Shown here: positions 13,608 to 36,936 of the stretch, piece by piece
Numbering within the stretch: position 1 is the first letter of the stretch
Layout of the letters: each line of letters starts with the position of its first letter
Assembly: GCA_017482385.1 (NCBI GenBank)
Contig: JAFUNI010000002.1
Span: 1 to 64,000 of the forward strand
Length of the DNA: 64,000 nucleotides
Direction of reading: 5' to 3'
From: Oscillospiraceae bacterium
GTDB lineage: Bacteria > Bacillota > Clostridia > Oscillospirales > Oscillospiraceae
Notes under the pieces: generated by a model
Told to the model about the DNA's origin: nothing
Database searches by the model: none
Seen by the model: only the letters and a program-made list of their open reading frames with translations
Translations under genes and position numbers: made by a program

Positions 13608-13679
13608 CTCTACAAGTAGAGTATAGTAATTATACTCGGTTTATAGAGTATTGTCAAGTAAAAGAGCAGAAATTATCAT
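13608..13679. promoter_or_regulatory. Divergent promoter/operator region
   Basis: Two palindromes lie side by side: CTCTA-CAAG-TAGAG at 13608-13621 and GAGTATA-GTAAT-TATACTC at 13619-13637. On the plus strand TTGTCA (13651-13656) and TATCAT (13674-13679) are 17 bases apart, ahead of the HTH gene. This is the usual layout of an autoregulated XRE locus. Confidence 0.6.
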
Positions 13680-13700
13680 AAGATACAAGAGGGTGTTACG

Positions 13701-14241: not shown

Positions 14242-14277
14242 AAAAAAGAACCAAGGCCAAACGGTCTTGGTTCTTTT
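14242..14277. terminator. Terminator, 36-bp copy 2
   Basis: Exact copy of 13118-13153, ending in TTTTTT. It faces the convergent TPR-like gene at 14324 and can end transcription from the left. Confidence 0.8.
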
Positions 14278-14323
14278 TTGTCATTCGTGTCCGAAAAAGA
14301 ACTGGTCGAAAACCTGATTTTCT

Positions 14324-20696: not shown

Positions 20697-21884
20697 TCAT
20701 GCTTCTTTAATTGCGTCCCGGAATATCTGACTTGCCCGCCTGATACTCTCCTGATCGGCGTGGGTATACATCCGCAATGTGACCGCTTTGTCCGTATGTC
20801 CTAACTTTTCTGATACACTGGCAATGTCCGCTCCGTTGGTGATGGCGATGCTGGCAAAGCTATGCCGGAGCTTGTGAGGGTGCAACCCCTGAACACCATA
20901 CTTCCTTGCAAAGTTTTGCAGATAACGGGCTGGGCTTTGAGGATGTATTGGCTCGTGGCTACCTTCCTGGGTAAATACATATTGGCTGATGGCTTTCCTG
21001 CTTTGCTCAAGCCGAAGCTCACGCAACAGCGCAATGATTTGCGGATCCACATCAATGGTACGGCTCCGTCCGTTCTTGGGGGTATCCAGATAGATACCCT
21101 TGTCCGGGGTATAACAGAGATTGCCGCAGATGGTGATGGTGTTCTTTGCAAAGTCCACATCCTTCCACTGCAGTCCGCAGCATTCTCCCCGGCGGATGCC
21201 TGTGTCAATCAGCAACCGGATCATTGCCCGCCATTTCAGCGGCTCTTGAGATAAGCAACTCCAGATATGCCGGATCTCCTCGGCGGTATAAGCCTTTGCT
21301 TCCTGCGTTTTCACTTCGTCCTTTCGGGGTCTAGGGCGCTGCACCTTGTCCATGGGGTTTCGGTCAATCAGATCTGCCAGATACGCCATTTTGAACAGAC
21401 CTTGCAAAACCGTATAAACTTTGATCACAGTGCTGTGGCTTTTGCTTTGAGCCTGCATAGATAGCAGCAGAGCAGTAATCTGCGCAGCAGTGACCTCCGG
21501 AAGCTTAAAACCTCATAGAACCGGATATATCCATTTGTTCAAATTCCCTTGATAGCCCGTCCGTGTGTTTTCAGAACAGCGGATCGCCAGAGAAGGCATA
21601 AACACCGTCTCGCCATATTGCTTTAGGGTTTTTATCTGCGCGGCTTCCAGTGCCTTTCGGTAGCTCTCCACGCGCTCTTCCTGCCGGGTAATTACCTCAC
21701 CGGCTTTGACCTTTCGTTCAAACTCCACTGCCACTTTGACCAGCTCCCGATCAATGGCTTTTTGACTCCAGCCTGCAGGTGGATACCACCTTGTGGTAAG
21801 CCGGGGAATGCCCCTGCCCCGGGATACAGAGATCTCGTAAAAGGGCGTTCCGTCCTTCGTATTCAGTTTTCTTGTGGATGCCAT
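20697..21884 (-). pseudogene. int: Tyrosine-recombinase integrase interrupted by an in-frame TGA
   Basis: From ATG 21884 (AAGGAG seven bases upstream) the frame runs 123 codons, meets TGA at 21513-21515, and continues in the same frame to 20697. The full product would be ~395 aa: AP2-like arm-binding part, SAM-like core-binding part (split by the stop), and a catalytic domain with TGIRRGE, HKLRHSFA and MYTHAD (Arg, His-x-x-Arg, Tyr). A single base change would restore it. Either the gene is dead or a shorter catalytic fragment starts downstream. It is the likely former driver of the tRNA-Thr island. Confidence 0.85.
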
Positions 21885-22051
21885 AAGTATACTCCTTTCT
21901 TGACAGTGCGCCTGAAAAAGGGTATAATATGGGCGCACTGATGCCTTATGATTTGAACGTTGTGGGTGTTTGTGTATTTGCCGTCTGGGTGTTGGCGCAC
22001 TCAGGCGGCTTTCTTTTTATTCTGGATATTGGCGTATCCATGTTTTTGCGC

Positions 22052-22339
22052 TTAGCCTAAACTCTTCAGATAAGTCTTTAGATTTTTTATTGGCTCTTTA
22101 AGCTCATTTATCTGGTACTCTTTGGAAATTTCATCTAAATTTCTCAATATAAGCTTTAACTGACTCTTGCTTGGTATGCAATTCCCCATTACATAGGACG
22201 CTAAATTTTTGCAAACGGGCGTAAGACGATTTGCCGCAGCACGCTTTTTCTGTGCCCCCAAACGGTTATCGAACATTGTGTTGTTCTCTATTTCGTTGGC
22301 TATATTCAAAAGCTGGTTTGTAATCTCGTTCAGTGTCAT
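22052..22339 (-). CDS. Hypothetical helical protein
   Basis: 95 aa from ATG 22339, with GAGGTG upstream; a GTG nine bases earlier is possible. All-helical, charged, no membrane segment or known motif. It lies between the integrase and the repressor gene on the same strand, a common place for small element-maintenance genes. No function is assigned. Confidence 0.45.
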   Translation of the reverse strand: MTLNEITNQLLNIANEIENNTMFDNRLGAQKKRAAANRLTPVCKNLASYVMGNCIPSKSQLKLILRNLDEISKEYQINELKEPIKNLKTYLKSLG

Positions 22340-22417
22340 AGTCAGCACCTCGCTATGCTCTAGTGTTGTTAGCGTTGGAGCATTTTTTATAAGTAATTCC
22401 CTTTCATAAAACCAATT

Positions 22418-23014
22418 TTATTCATCTTCTTTTAATCCGCTGTCAAGAAGGAATTTCTGGATCTGTTCGTCTCTGGGGTCGGTTTCAAACCATCCACCAG
22501 TTCCGTCATCGAAAACTTCAGTCGCTTTTGCCATCATTTCCTTAAACTGAAATTTTGCGTACGCTTCAATGGTTTGCTCTATCGTATCATGGTACTCCTC
22601 GCTATCAAGAAGAAATAGCCTTTTGCGGTTGTAATCGATTATCAAGGTGTGACCATGTGTTTCATCGGAAGAATCCATTGAGAATACTTCCCCTAAGCTG
22701 CCGTCACCACCATCTGTAATCAGCTCGTAACCCAATGAATGAATATAGGCATCAAAGTGGTTGCTTCGGTTTGTTTCGTCGTAAGCCGCTTCCGGCGTTA
22801 GATACTTGATGGGGGTAGAGCCGGGAAGAAGAAAGGCAAGGATAGAGATATTTAATGCCTGGCAAACCCTAACAAGAATCTCATATTTCGGCTCTCTCTT
22901 GCCAAGCTCATATTGTTGGATGGTGCCTGTTGCTACCCCTGCAGCTTCAGCAAGTTGTTTTTGGGTCATTTTTCGATATTTTCGGGCTTCCTTTATGCGT
23001 TCACCAATCGTCAT
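22418..23014 (-). CDS. XRE-family repressor of the island
   Basis: 198 aa from ATG 23014 (GAGGTGATC upstream). N-terminal Cro/CI helix-turn-helix: TIGERIKEARKYRKMTQKQL, then AGVATGTIQQYELGKREP. The C-terminal ~120 residues are acidic and of unknown type; there is no LexA-type Ser-Lys protease signature. It is divergent from the excisionase-like gene across two palindromes at 23087-23138, so it probably represses the element's rightward genes. Confidence 0.75.
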   Translation of the reverse strand: MTIGERIKEARKYRKMTQKQLAEAAGVATGTIQQYELGKREPKYEILVRVCQALNISILAFLLPGSTPIKYLTPEAAYDETNRSNHFDAYIHSLGYELITDGGDGSLGEVFSMDSSDETHGHTLIIDYNRKRLFLLDSEEYHDTIEQTIEAYAKFQFKEMMAKATEVFDDGTGGWFETDPRDEQIQKFLLDSGLKEDE

Positions 23015-23086
23015 ATGATCACCTCGCATTCAATATAGCATATCTTTTCTGAAAAAGCAATCAAAAATATGTGATTTTTAGCATCG

Positions 23087-23138
23087 ACACATTCAAACGA
23101 GTGTGTTAAACCAAAACACAATCAAATGAATGTGTTTT
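23087..23138. promoter_or_regulatory. Twin operator sites for the island repressor
   Basis: Two related palindromes, ACACATTC-N4-GAGTGTGT (23087-23106, one mismatch) and AAAACACA-N10-TGTGTTTT (23113-23138), start 26 bases apart between the repressor and the xis-like gene. Likely dimer sites of the XRE repressor. Confidence 0.6.
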
Positions 23139-23233
23139 CCACAAACTGAGCAAATACAGAATCAGTATACGAGAAGGCAACATTCTGATGGTACGCCAAG
23201 AACAAGAAACGAAATTGCAAAGGAGGTATAACT

Positions 23234-23419
23234 ATGCAAAACAAAACAACCACTGGCGCTCCCTTCCAGAAGATCCAGGATGCATGTGCGACCACCGGCC
23301 TGTCGAGGTATTTCCTTCGTAATGGCTGTAAGGATGGATCTGTCCCCCACATCAAAAGCGGCGGGGTATATTACATCAATATTCCCGCACTACTTAAGAA
23401 GCTGGAGGCAACACAATGA
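23234..23419 (+). CDS. Excisionase-like small HTH protein
   Basis: 61 aa with AGGAGG upstream. The layout KIQDACATTGLSRYFLRNGCKDGSVPHIKSGGVYYIN is the winged-helix pattern of MerR/HTH_17-type excisionases, as in Tn916-like elements. It would bend att-site DNA and bias the integrase towards excision. It is first in the rightward gene set. The partner integrase is interrupted, so function is uncertain. Confidence 0.7.
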   Translation: MQNKTTTGAPFQKIQDACATTGLSRYFLRNGCKDGSVPHIKSGGVYYINIPALLKKLEATQ

Positions 23420-23518
23420 AAACAGAAATATGCCGTTCGGGCAAAGCAGGCTCGGCAGAACCAAAGAATCACCGATAACAGGGGTGAGGACTTTCCTGTG
23501 GAGATAGAGAGAATACAC

Positions 23519-23566
23519 ATCAGGTGATATGGTCAGGCTATGCCCGGTCGTATCACCTGATTTTTA
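23519..23566. terminator. Stem-loop terminator
   Basis: Arms 23519-23529 and 23551-23561 (ATCAGGTGATA and complement) around a 21-base loop, followed by TTTTT. It separates the xis-like gene from the 362-aa gene. Confidence 0.65.
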
Positions 23567-23593
23567 TATATTGCGAGAAAGGAGGAAGCAAAT

Positions 23594-24682
23594 ATGAAGT
23601 GCTTATTGAAATACAACTGGGTCAAGCTACCCCGGGAAGAGATCCCAAAGTTGAAGGGCAATCTAGGCTTTTGGCTACATCTTGCTGAGCACGCAGCTTT
23701 TCGCAAGGGTATCGCTACCTATTGCGGTCACCAGAATCCCGTAGATCCCGGAATGTGGTCCGGCGGCATCGTGGGTCTTAAAAGGATCCTGGGTGTCAGA
23801 AGCCGGGAGAAGGCTTTGCAGGTGCTAGATGCGCTAAAGGATATGGGATATATTTCCTACACACTGGAGGATACCAAGCAGTTGACCTATCGTATTACTG
23901 ATTGGGTAATGGAATGCTCCGGTGCGGAGTGTATTGATGGAGCTGTATATACAACACCCGGCTACGGGTTTCTTTGCATACCCAGAAATATTACCGAGCG
24001 CCTTGTCGCTCAAGGGCACAAGTTCGAAGAGGCGGATGCCTGGTTGGATCTGTGGTGCCATACTGTCTTCCGGGATAAAGGCAATGCTTTCTCCTTTCTT
24101 TCTCCTGTAATCCAGTACGGGAAATACGGCTCCATGCTGACCCTGGAAAAGTTAGGGAACTGCTGGGGCTGGGAGAAAACCAAAGTGTGGAGATTCTTTC
24201 AAAAGTTTGCGCCCTATTTCCAGCTATACCGCTTGCCCGGTTCCTACGGCTGCGTGATCTACAGCCTGTTCTATCCTGTCTGCGACAAAATTGAATTGCC
24301 CGAGGAAGAAGCCGTTATGAGTATTTTCCGCAAAATACGTATTTGCGCCCAAAATACGCATACCGAGGGTACGATCAATGAAAAAGACAACCGCTATACC
24401 GCATGGAAGAGCCGTTGCGTGATCGATGCGCTGGAAGAGAAAGCGCAAAATCAGTATGGGGAAACTGCGCCCATTCAGGATGAGTCTGGCGCTGGTGTTG
24501 CACTTTCTGCCCTATATAATGCGCGTGTAATTTTCTCATGTAAGAACTGTAAGAATAGTAGGAACTGTATTTATGCCTGCCGAGGTATAGATATAGGGAA
24601 ACCTGTAAATCTACCAACCTATGTACAGAGGACCGTGCGCTCATACGAAGGCAGATCCTTTTTCAATCTTGATACAAGCTAA
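23594..24682 (+). CDS. Hypothetical element protein, possible replication initiator-like
   Basis: 362 aa with AGGAGGAAG upstream. Two winged-helix-like stretches are visible (~60-105 and ~175-225: RILGVRSREKALQVLDALKDMGYISY; KLGNCWGWEKTKVWRFFQKF). The C-terminus has a cysteine cluster (SCKNCKNSRNCIYAC, ~315-330), a probable zinc site. Proteins of this kind sit beside replication genes in clostridial integrative elements. I do not recognise a named family, and a replication role is only inferred from neighbours. Confidence 0.5.
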   Translation: MKCLLKYNWVKLPREEIPKLKGNLGFWLHLAEHAAFRKGIATYCGHQNPVDPGMWSGGIVGLKRILGVRSREKALQVLDALKDMGYISYTLEDTKQLTYRITDWVMECSGAECIDGAVYTTPGYGFLCIPRNITERLVAQGHKFEEADAWLDLWCHTVFRDKGNAFSFLSPVIQYGKYGSMLTLEKLGNCWGWEKTKVWRFFQKFAPYFQLYRLPGSYGCVIYSLFYPVCDKIELPEEEAVMSIFRKIRICAQNTHTEGTINEKDNRYTAWKSRCVIDALEEKAQNQYGETAPIQDESGAGVALSALYNARVIFSCKNCKNSRNCIYACRGIDIGKPVNLPTYVQRTVRSYEGRSFFNLDTS

Positions 24683-24692
24683 GGAGGTACAC

Positions 24693-25780
24693 ATGAAGCT
24701 ACACGAAAACCAACTGAATCTGATCCGGCATCTGATCAGGTTCAATCTAATGGTCTACCAGGACTGTTTGGAGATGCTGGACACGGATGGCAGCAAAAAT
24801 CGTACCGCCTTGTCTTATGCCTTTCGCCCTTGACAAAGAATAAGTACCTGTCCAAAAGCAAGAAAGGGGTCGTATCTGTCCTCAAGAAAGGGAGAGAACT
24901 GTTTCCCGAGGAAGTGCCACTGATCTCCACAGCTACGGGAGTAACGACACAGCAGCGGGTATTGCAGGTATCTAGGATAGCTTTGTGGCTTGGAAAGTGC
25001 GGTGTTCCCACCTTTTCCGATCGTCAGGACACCGAGGAACCCTACTTCATCCCCTCTGCCTGCTGGAGGAAGATCGCTCTGGGGATCCTGTCTACAACCC
25101 GGTTTGCCGGAATGCTGATGGCCTATGATAAGCGGTACGTGGTCTATGACATTGGAGATGGAACTATGGAGTGGCAGGTACGGGCGGAAAGCTCTCTGTT
25201 TTATTACCGCTACGGGTCCTTTGAGACCAAAGCCCATGGAATGATCCTGATCTGTGAAGACTGTAGGCGTGATGAGATCGCCAAGCAGATCATCCGTCAG
25301 ACCATGTGGAGCCGCAAATCTCTGCTGAAGGAACAGTATTCCGAAACGAACAAGCCTGTCCGATATTCCCGCTCACCCATCAAGCTAAGAGCCCAATATG
25401 AGCACGTGTATCTGACAACCCCTGCGCTGCTCGCCACAAGCTTGAAACGGATCTATGACGAAGAAGAAACCATCGAAACTACCATCGATGACGGTGAGCG
25501 CGCCTACAATTCCAAGGAAGGAAACTGGGTAGATTGGCCCAATCGGTACTTTCTGAACCCGGCTTTTGACATCCTTCTGCTGGTGTATTTCTTCTCTGCA
25601 GCAAAAAGTCTGCAGCATCTATTGATGGGTGAATGGGCAGATCATTTTAGTGAGCTGAAATACATCCTGTGTGTACACCAGGAGGACTTGGAGATAGCAA
25701 AAATGTATCCGGATGTTACGGGAATGAAGGAGGTATCAATGTATGTATATCGACCTGATGAAGACACTGAGGCAGATTGA
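24693..25780 (+). pseudogene. Replication-relaxation-like protein split by a -1 frameshift
   Basis: ATG 24693 has a strong AAGGAGG, but its frame stops after 46 codons (TGA 24831-24833). A second frame begins exactly there (TTG at 24830) and runs 316 codons. The two read naturally as one protein: winged-helix N-terminus (NQLNLIRHLIRFNLMVYQDC) joining ...SYAFRP to LTKNKYLSK... The overlap is TTGA at a CCCTTGA sequence. It may be a one-base deletion, a -1 slip, or coupled reinitiation at TTG. The family call is tentative. Confidence 0.55.
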
Positions 25781-26324
25781 AGCGCTGCTGGAGAACCAAG
25801 TACAGGACACGGCACAGATAGAAAAGGCCTATGAATTGACGCTACGCTTGCGCAGTCAGCTAATTGCCGTCCGGTATGACATGGAGCAGTTTGGTACAGC
25901 TGCCATAACACCTGCAGTAGAACCTGTAGAGCAGGCATCCCAGACTGAAAAGAAAATGATTGCGCTGACCATCCCGGAACCCTTGCCGGCACGGAAGGAG
26001 TTGACCAGCAACGTAGAGGAACACTGGATCCAGATGATCCACGATGCTATCGCCCAGGAGAGCAAAACCGGACTGCCGTACTTTGAAAAGGCCTTCGTGC
26101 TGATCCGGATCCAGACGCCCCGGGGCACTAATAACAAACAGGTCTGGGACACCTCCAACCGGGCAATCAATGTGGTCATTAACAATCTAAAGGGGATCTT
26201 CTTTGATGACGATGACTTCCAGCATATGGCCTGTGGAATTGTTGCCGATTGGGGTGAAATTGGGCAGACGGAGATCCGGATTTGTGCCTTAGAGGAGCTG
26301 GAAAAGCACGATATTTTCCGCTAA
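25743..26324 (+). CDS. Hypothetical protein with RusA-like C-terminal pattern
   Basis: 193 aa. The start at 25743 follows AAGGAGG and overlaps the previous gene by 38 bases. Residues 1-45 look like a coiled coil. Residues ~120-180 (IRIQTPRG...WDTSNRAINVVINNL...FFDDDDFQ) follow the layout of RusA Holliday-junction resolvases (Asp-rich loop, helix, second Asp cluster), but the usual DxDN is DTSN here, so one ligand is missing. It may be a divergent resolvase or an unrelated element protein. Confidence 0.4.
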   Translation: MYIDLMKTLRQIEALLENQVQDTAQIEKAYELTLRLRSQLIAVRYDMEQFGTAAITPAVEPVEQASQTEKKMIALTIPEPLPARKELTSNVEEHWIQMIHDAIAQESKTGLPYFEKAFVLIRIQTPRGTNNKQVWDTSNRAINVVINNLKGIFFDDDDFQHMACGIVADWGEIGQTEIRICALEELEKHDIFR

Positions 26325-26759
26325 AAATGATACCAATTATGACACCTCCCAAAGTGCCATAGAGAAAAAATCTCAAGGCTGTTGAAAACTGCCGTAATTT
26401 GCACTAGGCTCATTTATTTGACAGCCGTTGACGCAGGCAAAAAACGCAAATAAAAAGGGGTTCTGTGAGGACAATTTGCCTTAGCAAGTGTCTTCACAGA
26501 ACAGGCAAGGGAGGGTCATGATTGGCCTTGCTTCAATTCCAATCATACCCCTCCCGGGTAGGCATATCAGTGCTTCAATTCTTCCAAATCAAAGGGGTTT
26601 GGTTATGCGTAATGGAGGAAATCGCAATTACATCAATGTGCGCAAATGATCCACAATACCGGCAAGAATATCTGCCACACCCAACCCAACTGATGCTTGT
26701 CTGCCTACAAATTGAATATCAAATCCAACTTGATTGAATGATAAAGAAAGGAAAAGAAA
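26325..26759. other. 435-bp non-coding region with large inverted repeats
   Basis: Contains a 13-bp inverted repeat with one mismatch (26460-26472/26490-26502) and a nested pair GCAAGG/CCTTGC (26505-26510/26526-26531). There is no credible gene: the 71-codon frame at 26522 starts with TTG and has no ribosome site. The position between replication-type genes and cargo is where an origin of transfer or replication might lie, but no relaxase is visible. Confidence 0.45.
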
Positions 26760-27668
26760 ATGCGTAAGTTTATAATATTCACTTTAATCCTGAGCTTGGT
26801 TCGGGTTGGCTGTACTGCCCCAGACTCAAGTAAGAATACTACGAACACCCCTGATCTCTATCAGAGTACACGCTATGAAGACTGGTCCTCCCAGACTGAT
26901 CCTAATGAATCCCTGGAAAGTGCTGCATCAGGCCCGATGACATCAGATCCGACGCCGTCTACACCCACTGTGCCAGACCCATCTGAAAATAGCACCGACG
27001 AAACCAATGCACCCCAGCAGGCAACTGAAACACCAACCACTCCAACACTGCCAATTGAGGAGACAAAGCCGACACCGACTACACCTCCGGAAACAATTCC
27101 TACACAGCCATCAGAAACACAACCTCCGGAGACGACGCTTGAAGAGACTGTCCCGCCCACAACTGAGCCAGAAGTTACTGAGCCGCAGATCGATAAGCAT
27201 TCTTATGAATTCAAGCGGCAGGTCGCACAGTATGCTGTACAGTACATAAACCAGTACCGTGCTGAGGTAGGGGTTGGCCCCTGCGAGGTTCTGCCTGGTA
27301 TGACTTTGGTTGCGGAATACCGAGCCGATCAGCTTACACGAAACTATGCTCATGATACTGCAGATAAGCGTGAGGCGCTTGCCTATTATGCGTATGGCAG
27401 ATGGATCGATGCCACTATCGTGGGCTTAACTCCTGAGGACAGCTATTATGAAGCCGATGCTGCCGAGGCGATCTGTGCCGGCTTCGAGGGTAAAACTGCT
27501 GAGGAGATGGGTAAGTACATTGCAGATCTGTGCCACAACAGCCCCAGCCACTGGAGCTATATTGGGTCAAGTAAGTTCAGCTATATTGGCGCTGGTGTGG
27601 ACTACAGAGTCGGTACGGCTTATGGCTGGTATGGCTGCGTGATGGTAGGCAGAACAAATTACGGTTAG
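26760..27668 (+). CDS. Lipoprotein with CAP/SCP-like domain
   Basis: 302 aa. A signal peptide (basic start, hydrophobic core to ~15) ends in a lipobox-like VRVGC with the lipid cysteine near residue 18. Residues ~25-145 are a Pro/Thr/Glu-rich linker that should span the cell wall. Residues ~150-302 resemble the CAP (SCP/PR1) fold: AQYAVQYINQYRAEVGVGP, then LTRNYAHDT, HNSPSHWSYI and a final YGWYGCVMVG strand. It is surface-anchored. CAP proteins have diverse roles and none is assigned. Confidence 0.75.
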   Translation: MRKFIIFTLILSLVRVGCTAPDSSKNTTNTPDLYQSTRYEDWSSQTDPNESLESAASGPMTSDPTPSTPTVPDPSENSTDETNAPQQATETPTTPTLPIEETKPTPTTPPETIPTQPSETQPPETTLEETVPPTTEPEVTEPQIDKHSYEFKRQVAQYAVQYINQYRAEVGVGPCEVLPGMTLVAEYRADQLTRNYAHDTADKREALAYYAYGRWIDATIVGLTPEDSYYEADAAEAICAGFEGKTAEEMGKYIADLCHNSPSHWSYIGSSKFSYIGAGVDYRVGTAYGWYGCVMVGRTNYG

Positions 27669-27683
27669 GAAGGGAGAAAACTA

Positions 27684-28442
27684 ATGGAAAAACGAAAAAA
27701 GGAATATTTTGACCACGCGCTGGATCGCGCAATCAGTCGTACCAGGAAGATCCTGGACGATTTGAAATTTATTCGTGAGATGAACCAGGAAGGTAAAAAA
27801 GATGTGGTATATAAGTTCATATTGCTTACGGCAGAAGACGCGGAATTCTTGATCCGGAATACAAGAGAACTGATTTTGAGCCAAAAGACACCTACCGGTG
27901 AAGAAGATGTACAGCGAATCATTGATGCAACCTACCCAGTTGAAATTGGATTCAATGCGGAAGGCTGGTTTGGGGTGCGCATTCCCTTGCTTATCCCGAA
28001 GAAGGACAACCATTCTGTGAAATATTTGGAGAAGCGTTTGGGACCTGTATTGGAGGAATTCTGGAGAGTAAGACCACGTTTTCAGCTTGCCCCGCACGAT
28101 TCTGTAATTGTGTTCCGGCATATTTATTCTACGCACAGGCCGGGATGGGAACGATGCGTTCCAGCTGATTCGGAGATTGACTGTGTGATCCGTCTGTTTT
28201 TCTCATATGTTTTCCGTAAAATATTCCCCATAGAGTTTCGTCACTATCATTGCTGTGCGATTGGCGAGGAGGAGTGTACGGAAGTATATGTGATGCCTGC
28301 CACGGATCTTGGGAAATGGATTTCTCAGGAAACCTCTGTTTGGAGCATTCTGCCGAAAGGCGAAAAGCTATACAGGACAGCTGCAGAGGCTATAAAGGTA
28401 CAGAACGAGGGTGCCAGTAAGGCATCAACGGCAACCCAATGA
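27684..28442 (+). CDS. Hypothetical protein of integrative elements
   Basis: 252 aa, soluble. The charged helical N-terminus (KKEYFDHALDRAISRTRKILDDLKFIREM) is followed by a mixed region with no clear motif; a HYHCCAIGEEEC stretch near residues 187-198 holds three Cys. It lies 15 bases after the lipoprotein gene and may share its transcript, ending at the terminator at 28490. The family is not recognised. Confidence 0.5.
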   Translation: MEKRKKEYFDHALDRAISRTRKILDDLKFIREMNQEGKKDVVYKFILLTAEDAEFLIRNTRELILSQKTPTGEEDVQRIIDATYPVEIGFNAEGWFGVRIPLLIPKKDNHSVKYLEKRLGPVLEEFWRVRPRFQLAPHDSVIVFRHIYSTHRPGWERCVPADSEIDCVIRLFFSYVFRKIFPIEFRHYHCCAIGEEECTEVYVMPATDLGKWISQETSVWSILPKGEKLYRTAAEAIKVQNEGASKASTATQ

Positions 28443-28489
28443 ATGCACACCCCGACAGGCATAACATACAGTACCATTTCTAACAAATA

Positions 28490-28526
28490 GAGGATGCGGC
28501 CGGAGTGGCTGCATCCTCAGCTTTTT
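28490..28526 (+). terminator. Rho-independent terminator
   Basis: Arms GAGGATGC (28490-28497) and GCATCCTC (28511-28518), followed by CTTTTTATTT. It closes the lipoprotein/252-aa pair. Confidence 0.75.
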
Positions 28527-28624
28527 ATTTGGGTTTATAGAGAAAACTGCCTATGCCGAAATAATGATATTCACATACACTACTGAAAATTTCCGGCAAG
28601 CCAACACTATTTTTTCAATAGCTG

Positions 28625-28653
28625 TTGACTAAATCTTTGTTCGTGGGTATAAT
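28625..28653 (+). promoter_or_regulatory. Sigma-A promoter of the defence-like operon
   Basis: TTGACT (28625-28630) and TATAAT (28648-28653) exactly 17 bases apart, 55 bases before the TTG start of the ATPase gene. No operator palindrome is seen, so expression may be constitutive. Confidence 0.75.
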
Positions 28654-28707
28654 GATACTGAAAAAAGTGTGCAATGTAGCCATAAATTTTCAATAGAGGT
28701 GATTTCG

Positions 28708-29961
28708 TTGGAAATTAAGCGCGATTATTACTTAAATAAATTGATAACCAAAAAGCACAACGGTTTGATAAAGGTCATTACCGGTATGCGCCGTTGCGGA
28801 AAATCCTATTTACTTTTCTATATCTTCAAAAAGCATTTGCTGGAGAGCGGTGTGCCGGCGGACCATATTATTGAGATCGCTTTTGATTCTTATGAGAGCA
28901 AAAAGCTTAGAGATCCGGAAGTGCTCTATCCCTACGTAAAAGGAAAAATCGTCGATGACGAGAGATACTACATCCTGTTGGACGAAGTGCAGCTCCTGGG
29001 GGAATTTGAATCTGTGCTGAACGGATTTATGCGCATCCCTAATGTGGATGTGTATGTCACCGGCAGTAATGCTAAATTCCTTTCCAAAGACATCATTACC
29101 GAGTTCCGCGGCAGAGGGGACGAGCTGCATATGAATCCCCTGTCCTTTGCCGAGTTTATGTCGGTCTATGAAGGAAACAAGTACGACGGCTGGAAGGAAT
29201 ATGTGCTGTACGGCGGCCTACCTTCCGTGGTGCTTCTGCCTACTCCCGAGCAAAAAATCGAATTGCTGAAGCGGCTGTTTGATGAAACCTATGTCAATGA
29301 CATTGTGGGCCGTCACAGAATCCGCAACAAGGACGAATTCGAAGAATTGATCAACATCCTGTCTTCTGGCATCGGCTCACTGACAAACCCCAAGAAGCTG
29401 TCAGATACCTTTAAGACAAAAAAGAACAAGAAGATCAGTGTTAACACTGTGAAGAGTTATCTGGATTATCTGTGCGACGCCTTTATCGTCAGCCGGGCAA
29501 CCCGTTATGACATCAAAGGTAGAAAGTACATCGACACTCCGCAGAAATACTATTTCAGTGATGTGGGCCTGCGTAATGCCAGAATCAACTTCCGGCAGAT
29601 CGAAGAAAACCACACTATGGAGAATATCATTTTTAACGAGCTCGTTGGCAGAGGCTTCAATGTGGATGTGGGTCTGGTGTGCGTTCGGGATGATGACGGT
29701 TCCGGTAAAACTACCCGCAAGCAACTGGAAGTGGACTTCGTGTGCAATAAAGGCTCCAAGCGCTACTATGTCCAGTCTGCATTTGCCATTCCCGATGACG
29801 CAAAAATGCAGCAGGAATCCAATTCTCTGCTCCGCATTGATGACACCTTTAAGAAGATCATCGTGGTCAAAGACAACCCTGCTCCCTGGTATACCGATGA
29901 TGGTATCCTGGTCATCAGCATCTACGACTTCCTGCTGAATGCGGATAGTTTGGATATGTAA
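28708..29961 (+). CDS. AAA ATPase with DUF4143 domain
   Basis: 417 aa from TTG 28708, preceded by AGAGGTG; the longer GTG frame at 28669 is disfavoured. Walker A GMRRCGKS (residues 26-33) and Walker B LLDEVQ (90-95) mark an AAA_14-type ATPase. Residues ~200-400 carry the DUF4143 part with the YYFSDVGLRNA and QLEVDFVC motifs, a PD-(D/E)xK-like nuclease fold in related proteins. These proteins are very common in gut anaerobes and mostly uncharacterised. It opens a six-gene operon with restriction-type genes. Confidence 0.8.
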   Translation: MEIKRDYYLNKLITKKHNGLIKVITGMRRCGKSYLLFYIFKKHLLESGVPADHIIEIAFDSYESKKLRDPEVLYPYVKGKIVDDERYYILLDEVQLLGEFESVLNGFMRIPNVDVYVTGSNAKFLSKDIITEFRGRGDELHMNPLSFAEFMSVYEGNKYDGWKEYVLYGGLPSVVLLPTPEQKIELLKRLFDETYVNDIVGRHRIRNKDEFEELINILSSGIGSLTNPKKLSDTFKTKKNKKISVNTVKSYLDYLCDAFIVSRATRYDIKGRKYIDTPQKYYFSDVGLRNARINFRQIEENHTMENIIFNELVGRGFNVDVGLVCVRDDDGSGKTTRKQLEVDFVCNKGSKRYYVQSAFAIPDDAKMQQESNSLLRIDDTFKKIIVVKDNPAPWYTDDGILVISIYDFLLNADSLDM

Positions 29962-29979
29962 AAACAACGAGGTTTAAGT

Positions 29980-30252
29980 ATGGAACTAAAAATCACACAA
30001 ACAGAATACGACAAAATCGAACATCTTGCACGTTGTACCGTTTCTGCTTATTCCAAGAAAGATGCAAATCCTTATTTGACACAATTGGAGTTTATCGCTA
30101 ATTCGAGCGGTTATGCAGGCAGCGTTAGGAACATTATTAGCGAACTGTGTGGCTCCGTTAGAAATGCTGCAGGAAGTGTTGCAGATAAATCCAGAAAAAC
30201 TTATTTTGTTGAAATGGATCTAGCCAAATTGAAGGATTTTATCGAGGAATAA
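29980..30252 (+). CDS. Small hypothetical protein in defence-like operon
   Basis: 90 aa, 18 bases after the ATPase. Amphipathic helices with a Ser/Gly/Ala-rich middle (SVRNIISELCGSVRNAAGSV). No known motif. The tight spacing on both sides argues that it is a genuine member of the operon and not an accidental frame. Confidence 0.5.
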   Translation: MELKITQTEYDKIEHLARCTVSAYSKKDANPYLTQLEFIANSSGYAGSVRNIISELCGSVRNAAGSVADKSRKTYFVEMDLAKLKDFIEE

Positions 30253-30284
30253 GATGTCTTGCAAATAAAGGAGCAAGGATATAA

Positions 30285-33146
30285 ATGTTTTACAAAATGA
30301 TTGAGCGGGCACGGGATCGCTGGTATGCATCCCCGGAATGCGCCGTTACAGATTTGATAAATTACATGACACTGACAGGCAATCTGCGGGATGCGCAAAT
30401 TGAGGCCATTAAGACATACCTTTACCTAAAAGTAGTGTGCAATTGCCAGTCGCTGAAGAAGCTGTTTTGTCAGGGTGCCTTTAATACACTGGACTTGGAT
30501 GATCTTGAGATTTCTAAAAGCACACGGGAGTTTCTGAAAAGCAGGAAGGCTGCTGCAGCACTGCTGGAGTATGCGCTTCTGACCAATGAAGCCGGTGAGC
30601 AGGTATCGACTAAGCTGGAGCAGCAAATCAAAAAGAACCCTGAAAGCATCGATTATGAGCAGGTTTTTACAGATGCATTCTATGGCGTATCCTACACCGA
30701 TTATCTGTTTAGCCTTCCCATGGGTGCCGGTAAAACCTACCTGATGGCAGCATTCATTTATCTGGACTTATATTTTGCGAGTCAAGAGCCTAACAATCCG
30801 GCCTTTGCCCACAACTTCATCGTGTTTGCACCCTCGGGCCTTAAATCCTCCGTGGTTCCCAGTTTGAAAACCATTCAAAAGTTTGATCCCTCTTGGGTGG
30901 TTCCGGAACCTGCTGCATCTGCACTGAAACGGCAGATTTCCTTTGAAGTGCTGGATCAAGGAAAGACCGCAAATAAGTCCAACAAAACCAAGAACCCCAA
31001 TGTTCAGAAAATTGCTAATCATCAGCCCCTATCCGAATTATTTGGCCTCGTAGCTGTTACCAATGCGGAAAAGGTGATTCTGGATCGCATTCAGGAGAGT
31101 AAGGGGCAGTTGAGTTTCTTTGAAGAAAGCGATGACGAGAAGGACCGTCAAGCCAACGAATTGCGTAATCTGATCGGTAAGCTGCCCGGTTTGGCCGTCT
31201 TTATCGACGAAGTTCATCATGCGGTCAGTGACGAAATCAAGCTTCGTGCTGTGGTCAACCGCTGGGCAGAAAACGATACCGTAAACTCCGTTGTTGGTTT
31301 CTCCGGCACTCCCTATCTGGAGAAAGCCGAAAAAATCGCAATTGCGGACAAACTGTCTGTTGCCACCGCCGAGATCACCAACATCGTTTATTACTATCCG
31401 TTGATTGCTGGTGTGGGCAATTTCTTAAAGCGACCTGTGGTGAAGATCTCTGACGTTGCGGACAGCAGCGTGATCATCGAAGCCGGTGTTCGGGAGTTCC
31501 TGGATAGCTATAAAGATACAGTGTATGCAGACGGCTTGGTTGCCAAGCTGGGCATCTACTGTGGCACCATCGAGAAACTGGAAGAAGTTGTTTATCCTCT
31601 GGTCTCCAGAATCATTACCGAGTATGACCTGTCCGCAGATGTGATCCTGAAATTCCATAAAGGCAATAAGCAGTATCCACAACCTGCTGACAGCCAGATG
31701 CAGTTCGACACTTTGGATAACCCCATATCCAGAGTTCGTATCGTTCTACTGGTTCAGATCGGCAAGGAAGGTTGGGACTGCCGGAGCTTGACTGGTATCA
31801 TTCTTTCTCAAGAAGGTGACTGCCCCAAGAACATGGTGTTGCAGACATCCTGCCGCTGTTTGCGTCAGGTGGAAAAAGGTGTTCCTGAAACTGCGCTGAT
31901 CTATCTGAACGACTCCAATGCAGATAAACTGAATGCCCAGCTGCAGCAACAGCACAGGATCTCCCTGAAGGAATTCCAGGAAGCTGGCTCCGACAGCAAG
32001 GTTCTGTCGCGTTATGACCGCACCAAATACTTGAAACTCCCCAAGATCGACTTCTACCAACTTCGGGTGAACTATGCGACACAGCAGCTGGAAGCAGCCA
32101 ACCCTGTTCGGGATATCCCCAATGCGGATAAGGGTTCCAAACTGGCTCAGGCAGTTGTGAAAACCACCGATCTAACCATGGAAGCCCAGACAATTCGGGT
32201 GGATGATGAGGAGCGCGGCACTATCCCCGCAACCTTTACCACATGGCTCATGGAGATTGTCAAGGGCAGCTTCGGCACCCTGACTATGGCGCAGCTGAAG
32301 CCCTATGAGGACGAACTGCGTGTGCTGTTCGAAGCCATTGCCTATGAGCGGGATGGATCCCGGTATTATAGTTCTAAGTTTGACCGTCATGTGGTGGAAG
32401 CCAATGTACGTAAGGCCTTCTGTGATCGCCGCAGCTTCACGACTACCGAGGAACTGATTCCTCAAGAATCCAGTTTGCTGAATATCGCAAACTTTACTAC
32501 CACTGTTTCTACCACCACCCCGGAGGACTACTATCCCAAGCAGGATCTGGTGGAGCGGATCATTCTGGATGACAAGGGCAAGCTGAAGGTCGATACCAAT
32601 ACGCAAAAGCTGATGGAACTGGCTGAAGCCACTGGAAATACTGCCATTCTGGAAATGCTGCGCAAGCAGAGTTCCTCCCATCCCCAGAAGAATCGTTCCT
32701 TCCACTATCTGCCCTACCGCACGGATAGCAGCTTTGAGCAGACCTTCCTGGATCAGGTGCTAGCTATGGCTGAGGTAGAAAACATGGATCTGGAGGTCTA
32801 CTACAACGGAGACCGGGCCATGACCGAATTCAAGATCAAGTGCTACAAGGGCGATGCCGGTGCATGGCGGTATGTTGGTATGTACACCCCAGACTTCCTG
32901 ATCGTGAAGCGGAAGGACGGAAAGATCCACAAGGCCATCATCGTGGAGACCAAGGGTTCCATCTATGCCAACGATCCCACATTTAAGGACAAGCGCTCCT
33001 TTATGGAGCGGGAGTTCACCCGGCAGAATAACAAGGCGTTCGGCTACGAGCGGTTCGAATATCTGTATCTGGAAGATTCCTTCCCGGAAGCAGAACGGAT
33101 TCGGATGACACATGAGACGATTTGTGCGTTTTTTAAGGAGAGATAA
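30285..33146 (+). CDS. Res-like SF2 helicase-nuclease
   Basis: 953 aa. After a ~130-residue helical N-terminus it has Walker A PMGAGKT (145-151), DEVHH (308-312), SGTP (340-343), a WDCRS motif V region and QTSCRCLRQ as motif VI (~527). The C-terminus has a PD-(D/E)xK nuclease: D870 in TPDFLIV and E888/K890 in VETKG. This is the build of type III restriction subunits, though the family differs from the canonical Res remnant at 35947. It is likely the effector of the operon, translocating on DNA and cutting it. Confidence 0.8.
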   Translation: MFYKMIERARDRWYASPECAVTDLINYMTLTGNLRDAQIEAIKTYLYLKVVCNCQSLKKLFCQGAFNTLDLDDLEISKSTREFLKSRKAAAALLEYALLTNEAGEQVSTKLEQQIKKNPESIDYEQVFTDAFYGVSYTDYLFSLPMGAGKTYLMAAFIYLDLYFASQEPNNPAFAHNFIVFAPSGLKSSVVPSLKTIQKFDPSWVVPEPAASALKRQISFEVLDQGKTANKSNKTKNPNVQKIANHQPLSELFGLVAVTNAEKVILDRIQESKGQLSFFEESDDEKDRQANELRNLIGKLPGLAVFIDEVHHAVSDEIKLRAVVNRWAENDTVNSVVGFSGTPYLEKAEKIAIADKLSVATAEITNIVYYYPLIAGVGNFLKRPVVKISDVADSSVIIEAGVREFLDSYKDTVYADGLVAKLGIYCGTIEKLEEVVYPLVSRIITEYDLSADVILKFHKGNKQYPQPADSQMQFDTLDNPISRVRIVLLVQIGKEGWDCRSLTGIILSQEGDCPKNMVLQTSCRCLRQVEKGVPETALIYLNDSNADKLNAQLQQQHRISLKEFQEAGSDSKVLSRYDRTKYLKLPKIDFYQLRVNYATQQLEAANPVRDIPNADKGSKLAQAVVKTTDLTMEAQTIRVDDEERGTIPATFTTWLMEIVKGSFGTLTMAQLKPYEDELRVLFEAIAYERDGSRYYSSKFDRHVVEANVRKAFCDRRSFTTTEELIPQESSLLNIANFTTTVSTTTPEDYYPKQDLVERIILDDKGKLKVDTNTQKLMELAEATGNTAILEMLRKQSSSHPQKNRSFHYLPYRTDSSFEQTFLDQVLAMAEVENMDLEVYYNGDRAMTEFKIKCYKGDAGAWRYVGMYTPDFLIVKRKDGKIHKAIIVETKGSIYANDPTFKDKRSFMEREFTRQNNKAFGYERFEYLYLEDSFPEAERIRMTHETICAFFKER

Positions 33147-33149
33147 ATT

Positions 33150-33944
33150 ATGAGCGAAAATAATACTTCTTTGTTACCTGACATTATTACTCCGGTTTCT
33201 GATGCTATCCATCAAAATTTGCCTGAAACAGAGAAACAGACAGACGGAGCATTGTCAACAGTTGTTGGCTTTTTCAACAATGTAGTTCTGTATCCCGTAA
33301 AGAAAGCTAATTTAACTTTTCGCTATAAGTTGGAAGCTTTTGAGGATGATTTGAAAGAGAAAATAAAGGATATTCCTGAAGAGAATCTCCAGCTTCCACC
33401 AACCATGATTGCAGGCCCAACATTAGAAGCACTGCGGTATACATATGACGAAGCTGAGTTGAGAGAGATGTATGAAAATTTATTAGCTTCGGCAATGGAC
33501 ACCAGAAAGGATGCGGAAACGCACCCTGCTTATGTGGACGCGATTAGACAAATGAGTCCCCTGGATGCCCGAGTAATGGCAGAAATTGTTAACTACACAC
33601 AACTTCGATGCATTAGCATCAAATTCTCAATTGTAGACTCAACGAATGTATATAGTAAAGGAATGCCAGATTATTTTGTTGAAGAGTTATGCGGATTAGC
33701 AGACCCGTTTGCTGTTTCTGCATCGCTAATCAATTTGTCTCGACTTGGTTTAATTGAAATTATTAATGGAACTATTAAAGGTGCAGATTACGAGGCATTA
33801 ATGTCCCACCCATATGTTATATCTCGTAAAGAGCTTTTTGAGAGATTCGGCAACGAGTTTATACTTAAGGACACCAAAAGTACTGTAGCCTTAAATAACT
33901 ATGGCATTAATTTTGCAAAAGTTTGCTTGGCAAAGGAGTTGTAA
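33150..33944 (+). CDS. Abi-alpha-like (DUF4393) protein
   Basis: 264 aa. The block YDEAELREMYENLLASAMD..., followed by HPAYVDAIRQMSPLDARVM (~residues 92-135), is the hallmark of the DUF4393/Abi_alpha family linked to abortive infection. A short hydrophobic stretch near residues 35-50 may touch the membrane. The gene is clearly more AT-rich than both neighbours, so it looks inserted between helicase and methyltransferase, yet gaps are only three bases each side. It probably adds a population-level defence response. Confidence 0.75.
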   Translation: MSENNTSLLPDIITPVSDAIHQNLPETEKQTDGALSTVVGFFNNVVLYPVKKANLTFRYKLEAFEDDLKEKIKDIPEENLQLPPTMIAGPTLEALRYTYDEAELREMYENLLASAMDTRKDAETHPAYVDAIRQMSPLDARVMAEIVNYTQLRCISIKFSIVDSTNVYSKGMPDYFVEELCGLADPFAVSASLINLSRLGLIEIINGTIKGADYEALMSHPYVISRKELFERFGNEFILKDTKSTVALNNYGINFAKVCLAKEL

Positions 33945-33947
33945 TCT

Positions 33948-35801
33948 ATGCCAATTAAATATGTACCCTTCATCCCAGAGCCTGTGGAGGGGCAGGCTGT
34001 ACTGGGGAATTTCAGCCGGATTCTGCGCTACAAGGGTGCGGATGAAGTATCTATGACCCTCCAGCGGGGAATGCCGCTGTATGAGATGGAAAAACAGGAA
34101 ACCGTGGGTAAGAACGCCGACGGCAACATGGTCATCCGTGGCGAGTGTATTTCTGCCTGCGCCTATCTGAAGGAGCGGGGCATCCAGGTAGATCTGGTCT
34201 ATATTGATCCCCCCTTTGCCAGTGGTGCAGACTATGCCAAGCAGGTCTATATTCGCCGCAATCCCAAAGTGGCTGAAGCTATTGCACAAGCAGAGCAGGA
34301 AGTCGATATCGAAGAACTAAAAGCCTTTGAAGAAAAGATGTACGGCGATGTTTGGGATAAGGAAAAGTACCTGAACTGGATGTACGAAAACCTTATGGCC
34401 ATTAAGAGCATCATGAGTGAAACTGCCTCGATCTATGTTCATCTTGATTTCCATGTAGGACACTATGTAAAGATATTAATGGACGAAATCTTCGGTGATG
34501 AAAACTATCAAAACGATGTTTACTGGTACTATTATAATAAACTACACGGCGCAACGAAGAAGGTTTTCCCACGAGCTACTGATATGATTTTGTACTATGT
34601 AAAGAATCGAGATGCTGGTTTTACATTCCACCACTTAACTGAAGAGCGAGACAAACCTATCAAAAAATTAAAGTATAGCTTTGTTAATGGTCACATACAA
34701 AATGATAAAGATGAAAATGGAAAATCCATAACTTATCTGAGTACCGAACGGCAAATTGATAATGTATGGAAAATATCCATGTTGCAGCCTGCTGATAAAG
34801 AAGAACCGGTTGGTTATGCAACGCAAAAACCGGAAGCATTGCTGGAACGTATCATTGGAGCATCGTCAGATCAAGGAATGCTTGTAGCGGACTTTTTTGG
34901 TGGTAGTGGAGTTACTGCAAATGTCGCGCAAAAGATGGGACGCCGTTTTATTCATTGCGATATCGGTGTAAACTCTATCCAAACTACCCGTGATCGCTTA
35001 CGAGTCAACGGAACAGAATTTGATGTTCTGGAAATCAAGGACGGAGTTCAGCTTTACCGCAATCCTGTTCAGACCATGGACAAGATCAAATCTTTGATTC
35101 CGGGTCTCCGGAACGAAGATTCTTTGGATTCGTTCTGGGAGGGTGCCATTTCGGACAGTAAGCTGGGCACGATTCCGGTCTATGTGCCCAACCTGATGGA
35201 CAGTTCCTCCAAACTGCTGGATACTGTTCTCGTCAACCGGGTCATCCATCAGGCTATCCCCGAACTGGATTCCTCCATCAAGAAGGTCATCGTCTATTAC
35301 ATCGACATCACCAGCGAGGAGGAAATCCGTAAGTTCATCGCACAGGACGACAGCACCACCGTGGAGATCGAACTACGGGATCTGAAAACCGTTCTGGATG
35401 ATGTGGTCATCGGTGATCACGCAGAGTTCCGCTGTGAACAGACCTCTGAGGGCTTATTCACCGGCTACACCGTCACCATAGACCGCTTCATCAGTGACCG
35501 TGTACTGGGCAAGATCATGGAATACAACCAGAAAGCCATGCTCAACTCCAAGAAAGCATTCAATCCCATTGAAATCAGTGAGGACGGCCTGGAACTGATC
35601 GAGTTCCTGAGCCTGGACTGCACCGCCGCCGAAGGTGAATGGCACTCCGACAGCGAGATCAAGATTGACAAGCTGGGCTATGTCATCCGCAACGGTCAGA
35701 AAACCAAATTCTTCTGGGACGGCACTATCCAAAGCGACAAGCAGCCGAAGCGGCTGAAAATCCGGAATATTTGCGGTGATGAAACCATTTGGGAGGTGTA
35801 A
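33948..35801 (+). CDS. mod: Type III Mod-like DNA methyltransferase
   Basis: 617 aa. The beta-class motif order is seen: catalytic DPPF (87-90) first and SAM-binding DFFGGSG (315-321) later, with the target-recognition region between and after. It should methylate adenine in a short asymmetric site and protect host DNA from the partner nuclease. Codons ~155-345 (34410-34985) are visibly AT-rich compared with both ends, suggesting recombinational exchange of the specificity region. It overlaps no gene and is followed four bases later by a broken DUF4062-like frame. Confidence 0.88.
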   Translation: MPIKYVPFIPEPVEGQAVLGNFSRILRYKGADEVSMTLQRGMPLYEMEKQETVGKNADGNMVIRGECISACAYLKERGIQVDLVYIDPPFASGADYAKQVYIRRNPKVAEAIAQAEQEVDIEELKAFEEKMYGDVWDKEKYLNWMYENLMAIKSIMSETASIYVHLDFHVGHYVKILMDEIFGDENYQNDVYWYYYNKLHGATKKVFPRATDMILYYVKNRDAGFTFHHLTEERDKPIKKLKYSFVNGHIQNDKDENGKSITYLSTERQIDNVWKISMLQPADKEEPVGYATQKPEALLERIIGASSDQGMLVADFFGGSGVTANVAQKMGRRFIHCDIGVNSIQTTRDRLRVNGTEFDVLEIKDGVQLYRNPVQTMDKIKSLIPGLRNEDSLDSFWEGAISDSKLGTIPVYVPNLMDSSSKLLDTVLVNRVIHQAIPELDSSIKKVIVYYIDITSEEEIRKFIAQDDSTTVEIELRDLKTVLDDVVIGDHAEFRCEQTSEGLFTGYTVTIDRFISDRVLGKIMEYNQKAMLNSKKAFNPIEISEDGLELIEFLSLDCTAAEGEWHSDSEIKIDKLGYVIRNGQKTKFFWDGTIQSDKQPKRLKIRNICGDETIWEV

Positions 35802-35804
35802 TTT

Positions 35805-35972
35805 TTGGCACAAAATGTTACACTGTATAACCTCCTAATTTCTTGCCCTGGTGATGTAAAAGATGAGGTTGCTATAGTCGAATCTGCCGTTGAGGAATTC
35901 AATGAGCTGTATGCTGAGCCACTGGGAATAACGATCAAAACCCGACACGCTGGATCTTCCGCAAAAATATGA
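35805..35972 (+). pseudogene. Truncated DUF4062-like N-terminal fragment
   Basis: From TTG 35805, after GGGAGGTG, 55 codons encode a strand-helix pattern (VTLYNLLISCPGDVKDEVAI) typical of the N-terminus of DUF4062-type proteins next to type III methylases. It ends at TGA 35970 where the sequence switches to a Res gene in another frame. The junction is near 35945. About the last nine codons are already foreign. Confidence 0.6.
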
Positions 35973-36936
35973 GGCCGCCAGACAGCGCTTTGAGCAAATC
36001 ATCTCCAAAGCAGACCGCAGACCTCCCATCCGCAACGCATCCAGAGATGTTGTGGTGCGGATCAACAAGCAGGTTATTGTATCTCCCGAGTTCCTGGATC
36101 TTTGGAAAAGGATTAAGCAGAAAACAGCTTACCGGGTCAGCATCGATACGGACAGGCTAATTGAGAACTGTGTAAAAGCGCTGCAGGAAATGCCTGCAAT
36201 CCCCAAGGCACGAATCATTTCCCAAACTGCGGACATTCACATCGAAAAAGCCGGTGTGCATCATGTGGAACGGGAAATGCGCACAACGGATATCGCAGAT
36301 TCTTATCAGTCTCTGCCGGATATTATCACAACGATCAGTGATGCAACGCTGCTAACCCCTGCCATAGTCAACGAGATTCTGGTGCAGAGTGGAAGACTAA
36401 AGGATTTCCTGAACAATCCGGAAGCTTTCCTCGAGAAAGCCATCGAGCTGATCAAAAACAATCGGCACGCCTTGGCAATTGACGGTATCCGCTATGTGAA
36501 GCTGGACGGAAAGGAATACTATGTCCAGGAGATCTTCGATACCGCTGAGCTGATTGCCAATCTGGACCGTAATGCGGTAAAGGTTGAACACAGTGTTTAC
36601 GATTACATTATCTATGACAGCAGTACCGTTGAACGTCCCTTCGCACTGGCTCTGGACAATGATCCGGACGTAAAAATGTTCTTCAAAATCCCAGACCGAT
36701 TTAAGATCGATACACCCATTGGTGCTTATAATCCCGACTGGGCAGTGTATCTGACCAAGAACGGAGAAGAGAAGCTGTACTTCATTCTGGAAACTAAGGG
36801 CAGCGACAGCTTTATGGATCTGCGTACCCAGGAACAATTGAAGATCCACTGCGGCAAAAAGCATTTTGAAGCACTGGACAACGGTATCGAGATGCAGGTC
36901 GCAACCGATTGGCACGAGATCAAAGCAAGAGTATAA
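35947..36936 (+). pseudogene. C-terminal remnant of type III restriction subunit Res
   Basis: An open frame without its own start at the 5' side begins at TLDLPQKYEAARQRF, a segment lying after the helicase core of canonical Res proteins, and ends with an endonuclease motif: D in NPDWAVYL and E/K in LETKG. All helicase motifs are missing. A GTG at 36052 could start a 294-aa product with the nuclease domain. It looks like the product of a deletion that fused a DUF4062-like gene to this one. The Mod upstream may originally have partnered with it. Confidence 0.75.

Follow-up and report, generated by a model that had tools for sequence, protein, structure and literature searches.

In a 64,000-nucleotide stretch of the genome of an Oscillospiraceae bacterium (GenBank assembly GCA_017482385.1, contig JAFUNI010000002.1, positions 1 to 64,000; hereafter the window), two genes of a restriction-modification (R-M) operon enclose a slot that holds different genes in different relatives. 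The first core gene, C (30285..33146, + strand), encodes a superfamily 2 (SF2) helicase with a ResIII helicase match, joined to a PD-(D/E)XK-like nuclease, and the second, E (33948..35801, +), encodes a beta-class N6 methylase (Mod; EcoP15I Mod 4zcf, 1.1e-12). The slot between them (33147..33947, +) measures 801 nt in the window and is presently occupied by gene D (33150..33944, +). The family matches of D (Abi_alpha, PF14337, E = 1.3e-46; PDC-S47, 3.2e-46) and of E (N6_N4_Mtase, E = 6.3e-42), together with these coordinates, bear out the initial annotation of this DNA, which had placed an abortive-infection protein between nuclease and methylase. On balance, C and E are taken to form a type III-like R-M pair and to act as an expression chassis with a slot for cargo, in which Abi-alpha would be a second line of defence, a reading that we favour with some reserve. 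Sequence comparison shows conservation of the pair but not of what the slot contains, and exchange of the slot among cores that are close relatives.

Relatives of C were examined in 84 loci, one of which (L001) is a copy of the window, and Mod follows C in 69 of the 83 others. With the window added, the end of C and the start of Mod are readable in 68 loci, which leave 63 distinct loci after removal of five near-duplicates; L055, with an internal stop in C, was kept among them. Of 14 loci without a Mod match, ten end no more than 700 bases past the matched part of C, and no Mod was found within the 985-1985 bases after C in L007 (matched only over residues 1-107 of C), L042, L061 and L082. The slot is filled in 44 of the distinct loci and empty in 19, and the distance from C to E ranges from an 11-nt overlap to 2.4 kb.

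The cargo falls into 19 BLAST clusters (open reading frames [ORFs] of at least 55 aa, E<=1e-5), two of which (45 and 46) each represent a small ORF of the same locus, L004. Pfam and PADLOC searches on representatives gave the family names, which BLAST then carried over to cluster mates, and the clusters may hide distant kinship, as the AbiJ_NTD4 representative matches the PDC-S32 model at 4e-4. The occupants include PDC-S32 (seven loci), a 68-aa protein without clear match (seven), DUF2513 (five), Abi_alpha (four, the window included), PD-T7-3 (three; PADLOC 7.5e-124), AbiJ_NTD4 with DUF7014 (two), DUF5677 (two), HEPN (two, the match being in L051 only, while L068 of the same cluster has no Pfam match itself), AAA_21 with a partner (one), a sub-threshold PIN match (one) and several clusters of small membrane-like proteins, their membrane nature judged by eye. 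Known or suspected defence families among the representatives are Abi_alpha, AbiJ_NTD4, PD-T7-3, PDC-S32 and HEPN. Two or three genes share the slot in L021, L024, L048, L065 and L078. Filled slots are also present in isolates, according to their records (L016, L027, L052, L053 and L083), and therefore binning errors are not the general cause of the variation.

Gene D itself matches Abi_alpha alone in Pfam at E<=0.1, with the domain spanning residues 58-259 and profile positions 3-196 of 196. Abi-alpha was found in three of the 295 genomes of the order, namely the window's own and two distant ones, and the stretches around the distant copies (L090 and L091) have no C or E match. The gene order that the initial annotation had proposed to look for in other genomes does recur as far as Res, Abi-alpha and Mod are concerned, in L016 (an isolate) and in L034/L070, but Abi-alpha fills the slot in only 4 of the 63 loci. 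By these comparisons, the conserved part of the locus is Res, Mod and the position of the slot.

The junctions of the slot follow a recurrent pattern. In 48 of the 63 distinct loci, the last 27 nt of C include a Shine-Dalgarno-like motif (35 of the 44 loci with cargo and 13 of the 19 without), against a background of 623 in 8446 same-size windows inside C (7%). In the window, this motif is an AAGGAG within the last codons of C (33135..33140, +), 9 nt ahead of the cargo start codon, and a second AAGGAG stands within the last codons of D (33933..33938, +), 9 nt ahead of the Mod start codon, with D ending on its own stop. At the other side, the first codons of Mod (ATG CCG ATT AA) contain a stop in another frame in 50 of 68 loci; in 21 of the 44 distinct loci with cargo, the final cargo gene extends into Mod and terminates at that stop. 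Because such cargo ends inside Mod, endings such as N-A-D, H-A-D or N-A-N are common to different cargo clusters. In four empty loci (L043, L047, L062 and L075), C itself ends on the stop within Mod. Apart from the window, 43 loci are filled; in 41 of them the first cargo start lies within 60 nt of the C stop, and in all 43 the last cargo end lies within 30 nt of the Mod start or overlaps it, in a junction ORF search that allowed 60 nt of slack on each side.

These junctions have to be set against the view that the locus is ordinary defence-island clutter, in which the slot is a tolerated landing place and Abi-alpha acts alone, with no functional link to restriction. Such a view has a real, though lesser, claim to be correct. 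Relatives of Abi_alpha are mostly found on prophages according to their discoverers (PMC6356687), the positions upstream and downstream of the core pair vary too, an integrase-like ORF, recognized by eye, lies about 7 kb upstream of the operon, and type III loci of the order commonly have a filled gap as well. However, a mere landing place would leave the ribosome-site motif and the stop inside Mod unexplained, and it fits poorly with the tight cargo ends on both sides and with the stop that cargo and Mod so often have in common. In addition, the three other slot Abi-alphas are 62-68% identical to D, in contrast to 28-29% for two from outside such loci. Under the chassis reading, the ribosome-site-like motif in the last codons of C would serve whichever gene follows, and the end of the cargo would in turn supply the site for Mod, often with a stop common to the first codons of Mod.

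Comparison of closely related cores points to replacement of the cargo. Among 17 chosen locus pairs, the 12 with different cargo labels have no slot match (blastn/tblastx, E<=0.01), and the remaining five share a cargo family and their slots match. In the window and L008, C has 85% DNA identity overall and 89% in its last 300 nt, the first 300 nt of Mod have 92%, and the cargo between them is unlike. Other pairs with different cargo have C genes of 95% (L023/L033), 90% (L052/L083), 88% (L016/L053) and 86% (L014/L021) DNA identity, and L037 and L064, with C at 91%, differ in that one slot is filled and the other empty. The reverse case is provided by L025 and L033, where the slot is 99.9% identical over 920 bp and C is 89% identical and mosaic. 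Identity is 99-100% across the cargo, on one side including the 3' end of C and on the other reaching into Mod up to the end of the L033 contig, while the middle of C falls to 60-85%; this is the footprint of recombination that moved the slot. Homologous recombination within the conserved core could swap the cargo, the recognition region of Mod and the flanking genes, and such swapping would let one chassis sample many second-line weapons.

Several observations weigh against this reading, in whole or in part. On a quickly built tree of 61 C proteins, 17 slot states require 31 changes, compared with a mean of 40.1 and a minimum of 36 in 200 shuffles; as this is fewer than in any shuffle, the cargo is partly inherited with the core, and it is often replaced. 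(The 61 rows hold 59 different sequences, with L001, L002, L084, L055 and L058 excluded, incomplete C genes skipped, L081 left without a state and all membrane-like clusters scored as one state.) The loci were found with peptides of the window's own C, and the sample leans to near relatives. One locus, L061, has C yet no Mod in the following 1985 bases. The 68-aa protein, DUF2513, DUF5677 and the membrane-like occupants are not labelled as defence in either library, and to our knowledge they have no defence role. The last gene of the window operon has been lost, which may mean decay, and a controlling influence of the R-M proteins on the cargo is inferred only from where the cargo lies.

A further point of this kind comes from a control with type III loci of the same order that have a Res of canonical type. 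The NF012027 model matches 16 of 177 genomes at E<=1e-20, none above its strict cut-off, and 15 loci were taken (L118-L132). Mod and res are collinear in 13 of these; L126, where the arrangement is inverted, and L131, which yielded no mod, were left unscored. The mod-res gap is filled in 11 of the 13, and a slot is therefore not peculiar to the C-E pair. The occupant is one gene of 114-401 aa, apart from three genes in L130 and none in L122 and L124, and Pfam searches on ten occupants gave a YhcG nuclease, an M78 peptidase and an IVP protein, with the rest lacking a match above the cut-off. This control widens the finding and lowers the claim that the C-E pair is peculiar. In these loci, an ORF of about 880-900 aa was also observed one or two genes upstream of mod in L124, L126, L128 and L132, with a start that is helicase-like by eye in L124 and L128, and this ORF is possibly a further recurring module.

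Taken more broadly, the cargo chassis might be the general design of type III and type III-like R-M operons, with a dedicated slot, exchangeable by recombination, between the restriction gene and the methylation gene, and with the R-M proteins as a common guard of many unrelated toxins. In the family described here, the end of C would give the ribosome site and the start of Mod (ATGCCGATTAA, in the other frame) a ready stop, so that almost any gene could be expressed in step with Mod. This generalization is put forward tentatively and is less likely than not.

For the window, the proposed sequence of events is as follows. C and E would restrict and methylate at a site set by the variable recognition region of Mod, while Abi-alpha, made from the same messenger, would be harmless in healthy cells. 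By analogy with the premature lysis described in Enterococcus faecalis, Abi-alpha may then act late, against phages that slip past or inhibit restriction. A role for Abi-alpha in backing up restriction is plausible, and the protein is a candidate for it. A different advantage is conceivable, in which the cargo is a toxin or stabilizer that makes loss of the R-M operon costly, with selection acting on persistence of the element rather than on phage defence. However, R-M pairs are themselves addictive, the slot is empty in 19 of the 63 loci and no partner antitoxin is visible beside the Abi-alpha of the window. Though HEPN and AbiJ cargo, the weak PIN match and a Fic neighbour are folds of toxin type, and coupling of toxins and immunity has been proposed (PMC3506569), selection for addiction is an improbable account of the slot.

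The assignment of the pair as type III-like depends on the two core proteins. C unites an SF2 helicase with a PD-(D/E)XK nuclease, as expected of a type III Res, and the end of C gives sub-threshold TnsA-like and RE_endonuc matches. Residues invariant in 42 sequences are G147, G149-T151, D308-E309, S340-P343, P869-D870 and E888-K890. In an AlphaFold2 model (pLDDT 81, pTM 0.51), residues ~21-559 match SF2 helicases; the 50 fold matches listed for C include no type III Res, which excludes nothing. Alignment of C with six canonical-type Res proteins of the order by hhalign covers 77 columns, all in the nuclease, at a probability of 32% with few effective sequences, and phmmer found no PDB match for C at E<=1. 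The initial annotation had separated this helicase-nuclease from canonical Res, and in sequence the two do appear unlike. It is because C aligns with canonical Res only in the nuclease, and has no PDB match, that the label "type III-like" is used here. Separately, when L023 and L033 are each compared with L025, the middle of C (nt ~1600-2500) is 60-80% identical and the first half mostly 90-100%, as if the middle had been exchanged or were under diversifying pressure.

C is a rare gene, matched in seven of the 295 genomes searched in the order and in four of 391 in the class (both counts include the window's own genome, and contig ends truncate several matches). In GTDB contigs, a scan returned 77 loci, which according to their records are mostly of Clostridia and often from animal guts. 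Their identity is 64-89%, apart from a few outlying matches at 44-48% (Helicobacter, Kiritimatiellae), and one locus at 68% is from Paenibacillus. Three phage records match C, and one of them, PV036460 (Heliusvirales; 10001-14940), carries a C-E pair at 51-52% identity with an empty slot. A plasmid search gave 22 records, all below 60% identity, of which one covers at least 80% of the query.

The order of elements in Mod is that of type III enzymes, with DPPF at residue 87 (motif IV), a hypervariable stretch at ~185-290 and FGGSG at 317 (motif I). Over 59 Mod sequences, 25-residue bins between residues 176 and 300 have a mean identity of 20-51%, compared with 63-95% in the other bins. The putative target recognition region, residues ~185-290, corresponds to 34500..34817 (+), and its variability is as expected of changing target sites. 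In L036, a second methylase-like gene (1070-2095), with 27-40% matches to E in two pieces, lies directly upstream of C.

Beyond the core pair, the window operon consists of five intact genes, A to E, and a broken tail. All five lie on the + strand with gaps of 18, 32, 3 and 3 nt between neighbours (from ORF coordinates). They are preceded by a terminator-like hairpin of 13 pairs (28490..28518, +) and a sigma-70-like promoter, TTGACT-17-TATAAT with 11 of 12 consensus positions (28625..28653, +), both identified by consensus match. Across the window, 15 promoter-like sites were found against 13.3 expected and 11 terminator-like sites against 8.6 expected; as the scan is no richer than chance, a single putative promoter for the operon is graded as likely and no more. 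The initial annotation had described one promoter driving six tightly packed genes, and of this the packing of A to E and the promoter-like site hold, while the sixth gene proved to be a fragment.

Gene A (28708..29961, +), with a likely TTG start after AGAGG (by eye), occupies the upstream cargo position and encodes an ATPase with the AAA_14 (3.2e-31) and DUF4143 (9.9e-21) domains that had been predicted for it, and it is the sole DUF4143 match in its genome. It also matches the AAA-DUF4143 model PDC-S01 (5.6e-119), a PADLOC candidate family for which we know of no tested function. Gene B (29980..30252, +) encodes 90 aa and, as had been anticipated, has no family match. An ATPase of DUF4143 type stands directly upstream of C in few loci (the window, L013 and L034/L070, by Pfam or PADLOC; in L028 and L078 the upstream ATPase was assigned by 33% identity to A), and B has no match in any of the 77 GTDB-contig loci (tblastn, E<=1e-5). 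Distant relatives of B (35%) were found in one other genome of the 295 of the order (L086, 1495-1767) and one phage-like record (L087, 5001-5249), in the latter near repressor-like and UmuC-like ORFs recognized by eye, and B may be a mobile small protein. One viral_contigs scan with B and one with C gave no relative.

With this distribution, the six genes that the initial annotation had grouped together do not make up one system. Tight packing and a single strong promoter-like site would suit a fixed system, in which ATPase, 90-aa protein, helicase-nuclease, Abi-alpha and Mod form one machine. However, most loci that have C and E lack A, and likewise B and D, and the closest cores to the window, L008, L010 and L009 (C at 85, 79 and 77% DNA identity), hold other genes in the slot and just upstream. 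The gene content of relatives thus led to rejection of the fixed system, which is regarded as very improbable.

The tail begins directly after Mod with the truncated start of a DUF4062-like gene (35805..35969, +), a remnant of downstream cargo. Longer relatives in L027 and L035 occupy the same place after Mod, at 75-77% identity over 53 residues, and that in L027 matches DUF4062 at 7.5e-4 (below the Pfam cut-off) and PDC-S60 at 1.2e-24. Near 35.94 kb, by eye, this remnant abuts a C-terminal fragment of a canonical type III Res without a start of its own (35946..36936, +; ORF 36052-36936, with the frame open from ~35946 by eye), which matches RE_endonuc at E=7.6e-38 and positions 688-967 of 989 of the PADLOC REase_III model. 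What had been taken for a sixth operon gene at 36052-36936 holds only the C-terminal end of this unrelated Res, which falls outside the operon's original gene set.

The positions flanking the core pair are also frequently occupied. With near-duplicates kept, 27 of 51 loci have a gene on the same strand (100 aa or more) whose start is no further than 60 nt from the Mod stop, and 48 of 71 have one (60 aa or more) that ends in the 150 nt ahead of C. Single representatives downstream are TIR/SpbK, AbiTii, OLD-TOPRIM, DUF4062-like, FRG and Hypoth_Ymh, and those upstream are AAA-DUF4143, Fic, a YhcG nuclease, GmrSD and a sub-threshold HipA-like match. Several of these are defence families, but not all neighbours are: the gene that follows Mod by 100 nt in L012 encodes a glycosidase, and the one after Mod in L016 has no match. 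In the window, the stretch at 20697-29961 contains the integrase-like ORF, an XRE-type regulator (both by eye) and further ORFs, which suggests a mobile element. The search for borders of the island gave none: in four genomes of the same genus, the Trk genes to the right of the operon align from ~38.5 kb and nothing further left aligned (blastn), and the thioredoxin reductases of these genomes are on contigs other than those of the Trk genes.

If the slot is a functional device, every occupant is a candidate backup defence, found without guessing, and the 68-aa protein, DUF2513, DUF5677 and the small membrane-like proteins become directly testable. The chassis would also offer a natural comparison, with the same R-M core bearing different second weapons, and would explain small unknown genes inside type III operons.

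Among known systems, canonical type III R-M (EcoP1I/EcoP15I) has a beta-class Mod with a variable recognition region and an SF2 helicase with a PD-(D/E)XK nuclease, as here; unlike in that system, C appears by sequence to belong to another family, and the order is res-slot-mod rather than the mod-slot-res of the control loci. A functional precedent is PrrC in EcoprrI (type Ic), an effector inside an R-M operon that is activated when restriction is blocked (PMC12707154, PMC3710099). D likewise lies inside an R-M operon, between C and E with 3-nt gaps. However, EcoprrI is a type I system with one effector family, compared with a type III-like pair and 19 cargo clusters here, and D is an Abi-alpha without the HEPN anticodon nuclease and ABC NTPase of PrrC. 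If the chassis reading is true, the PrrC idea would grow from a single case to an exchangeable architecture. The Abi-alpha of E. faecalis V583 prophage 6 (ef2833) carries DUF4393, now Abi_alpha, the Pfam domain common to D, and gives early lysis and an abortive phenotype (PMC6356687); it is a prophage gene, whereas D sits in an R-M operon with its ends fitted to its neighbours.

In BREX and BREX-related systems, diverse nucleases and toxins serve as auxiliary or backup effectors in or beside the core loci (PMC12839542). Varied effectors are recruited to a core locus in both cases, but here their place is a single defined slot, bounded by the two core genes, whose junctions are stereotyped. A BREX-type core was considered for the window and set aside, as PglZ, BrxC and DUF499 are not among the Pfam matches of the six window proteins, the rest of the genome not having been searched. 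Abortive-infection genes have also been tied to R-M, type III included, in that AbiU1/AIPR is linked to type III R-M and HEPN genes occur in R-M operons (PMC3506569, PMC3710099), and coupling of immunity with suicide or toxin genes has been proposed generally (PMC3506569). In the available portions of these papers, the associations are those of particular families, not of one exchangeable position for many families. An exchangeable res-mod slot did not appear in any title or abstract start among the open-access matches listed, a search that left subscription papers and preprints mostly outside. Effectors embedded in R-M operons are thus known, whereas an exchangeable slot between Res and Mod, as read from the loci compared here, is apparently new.

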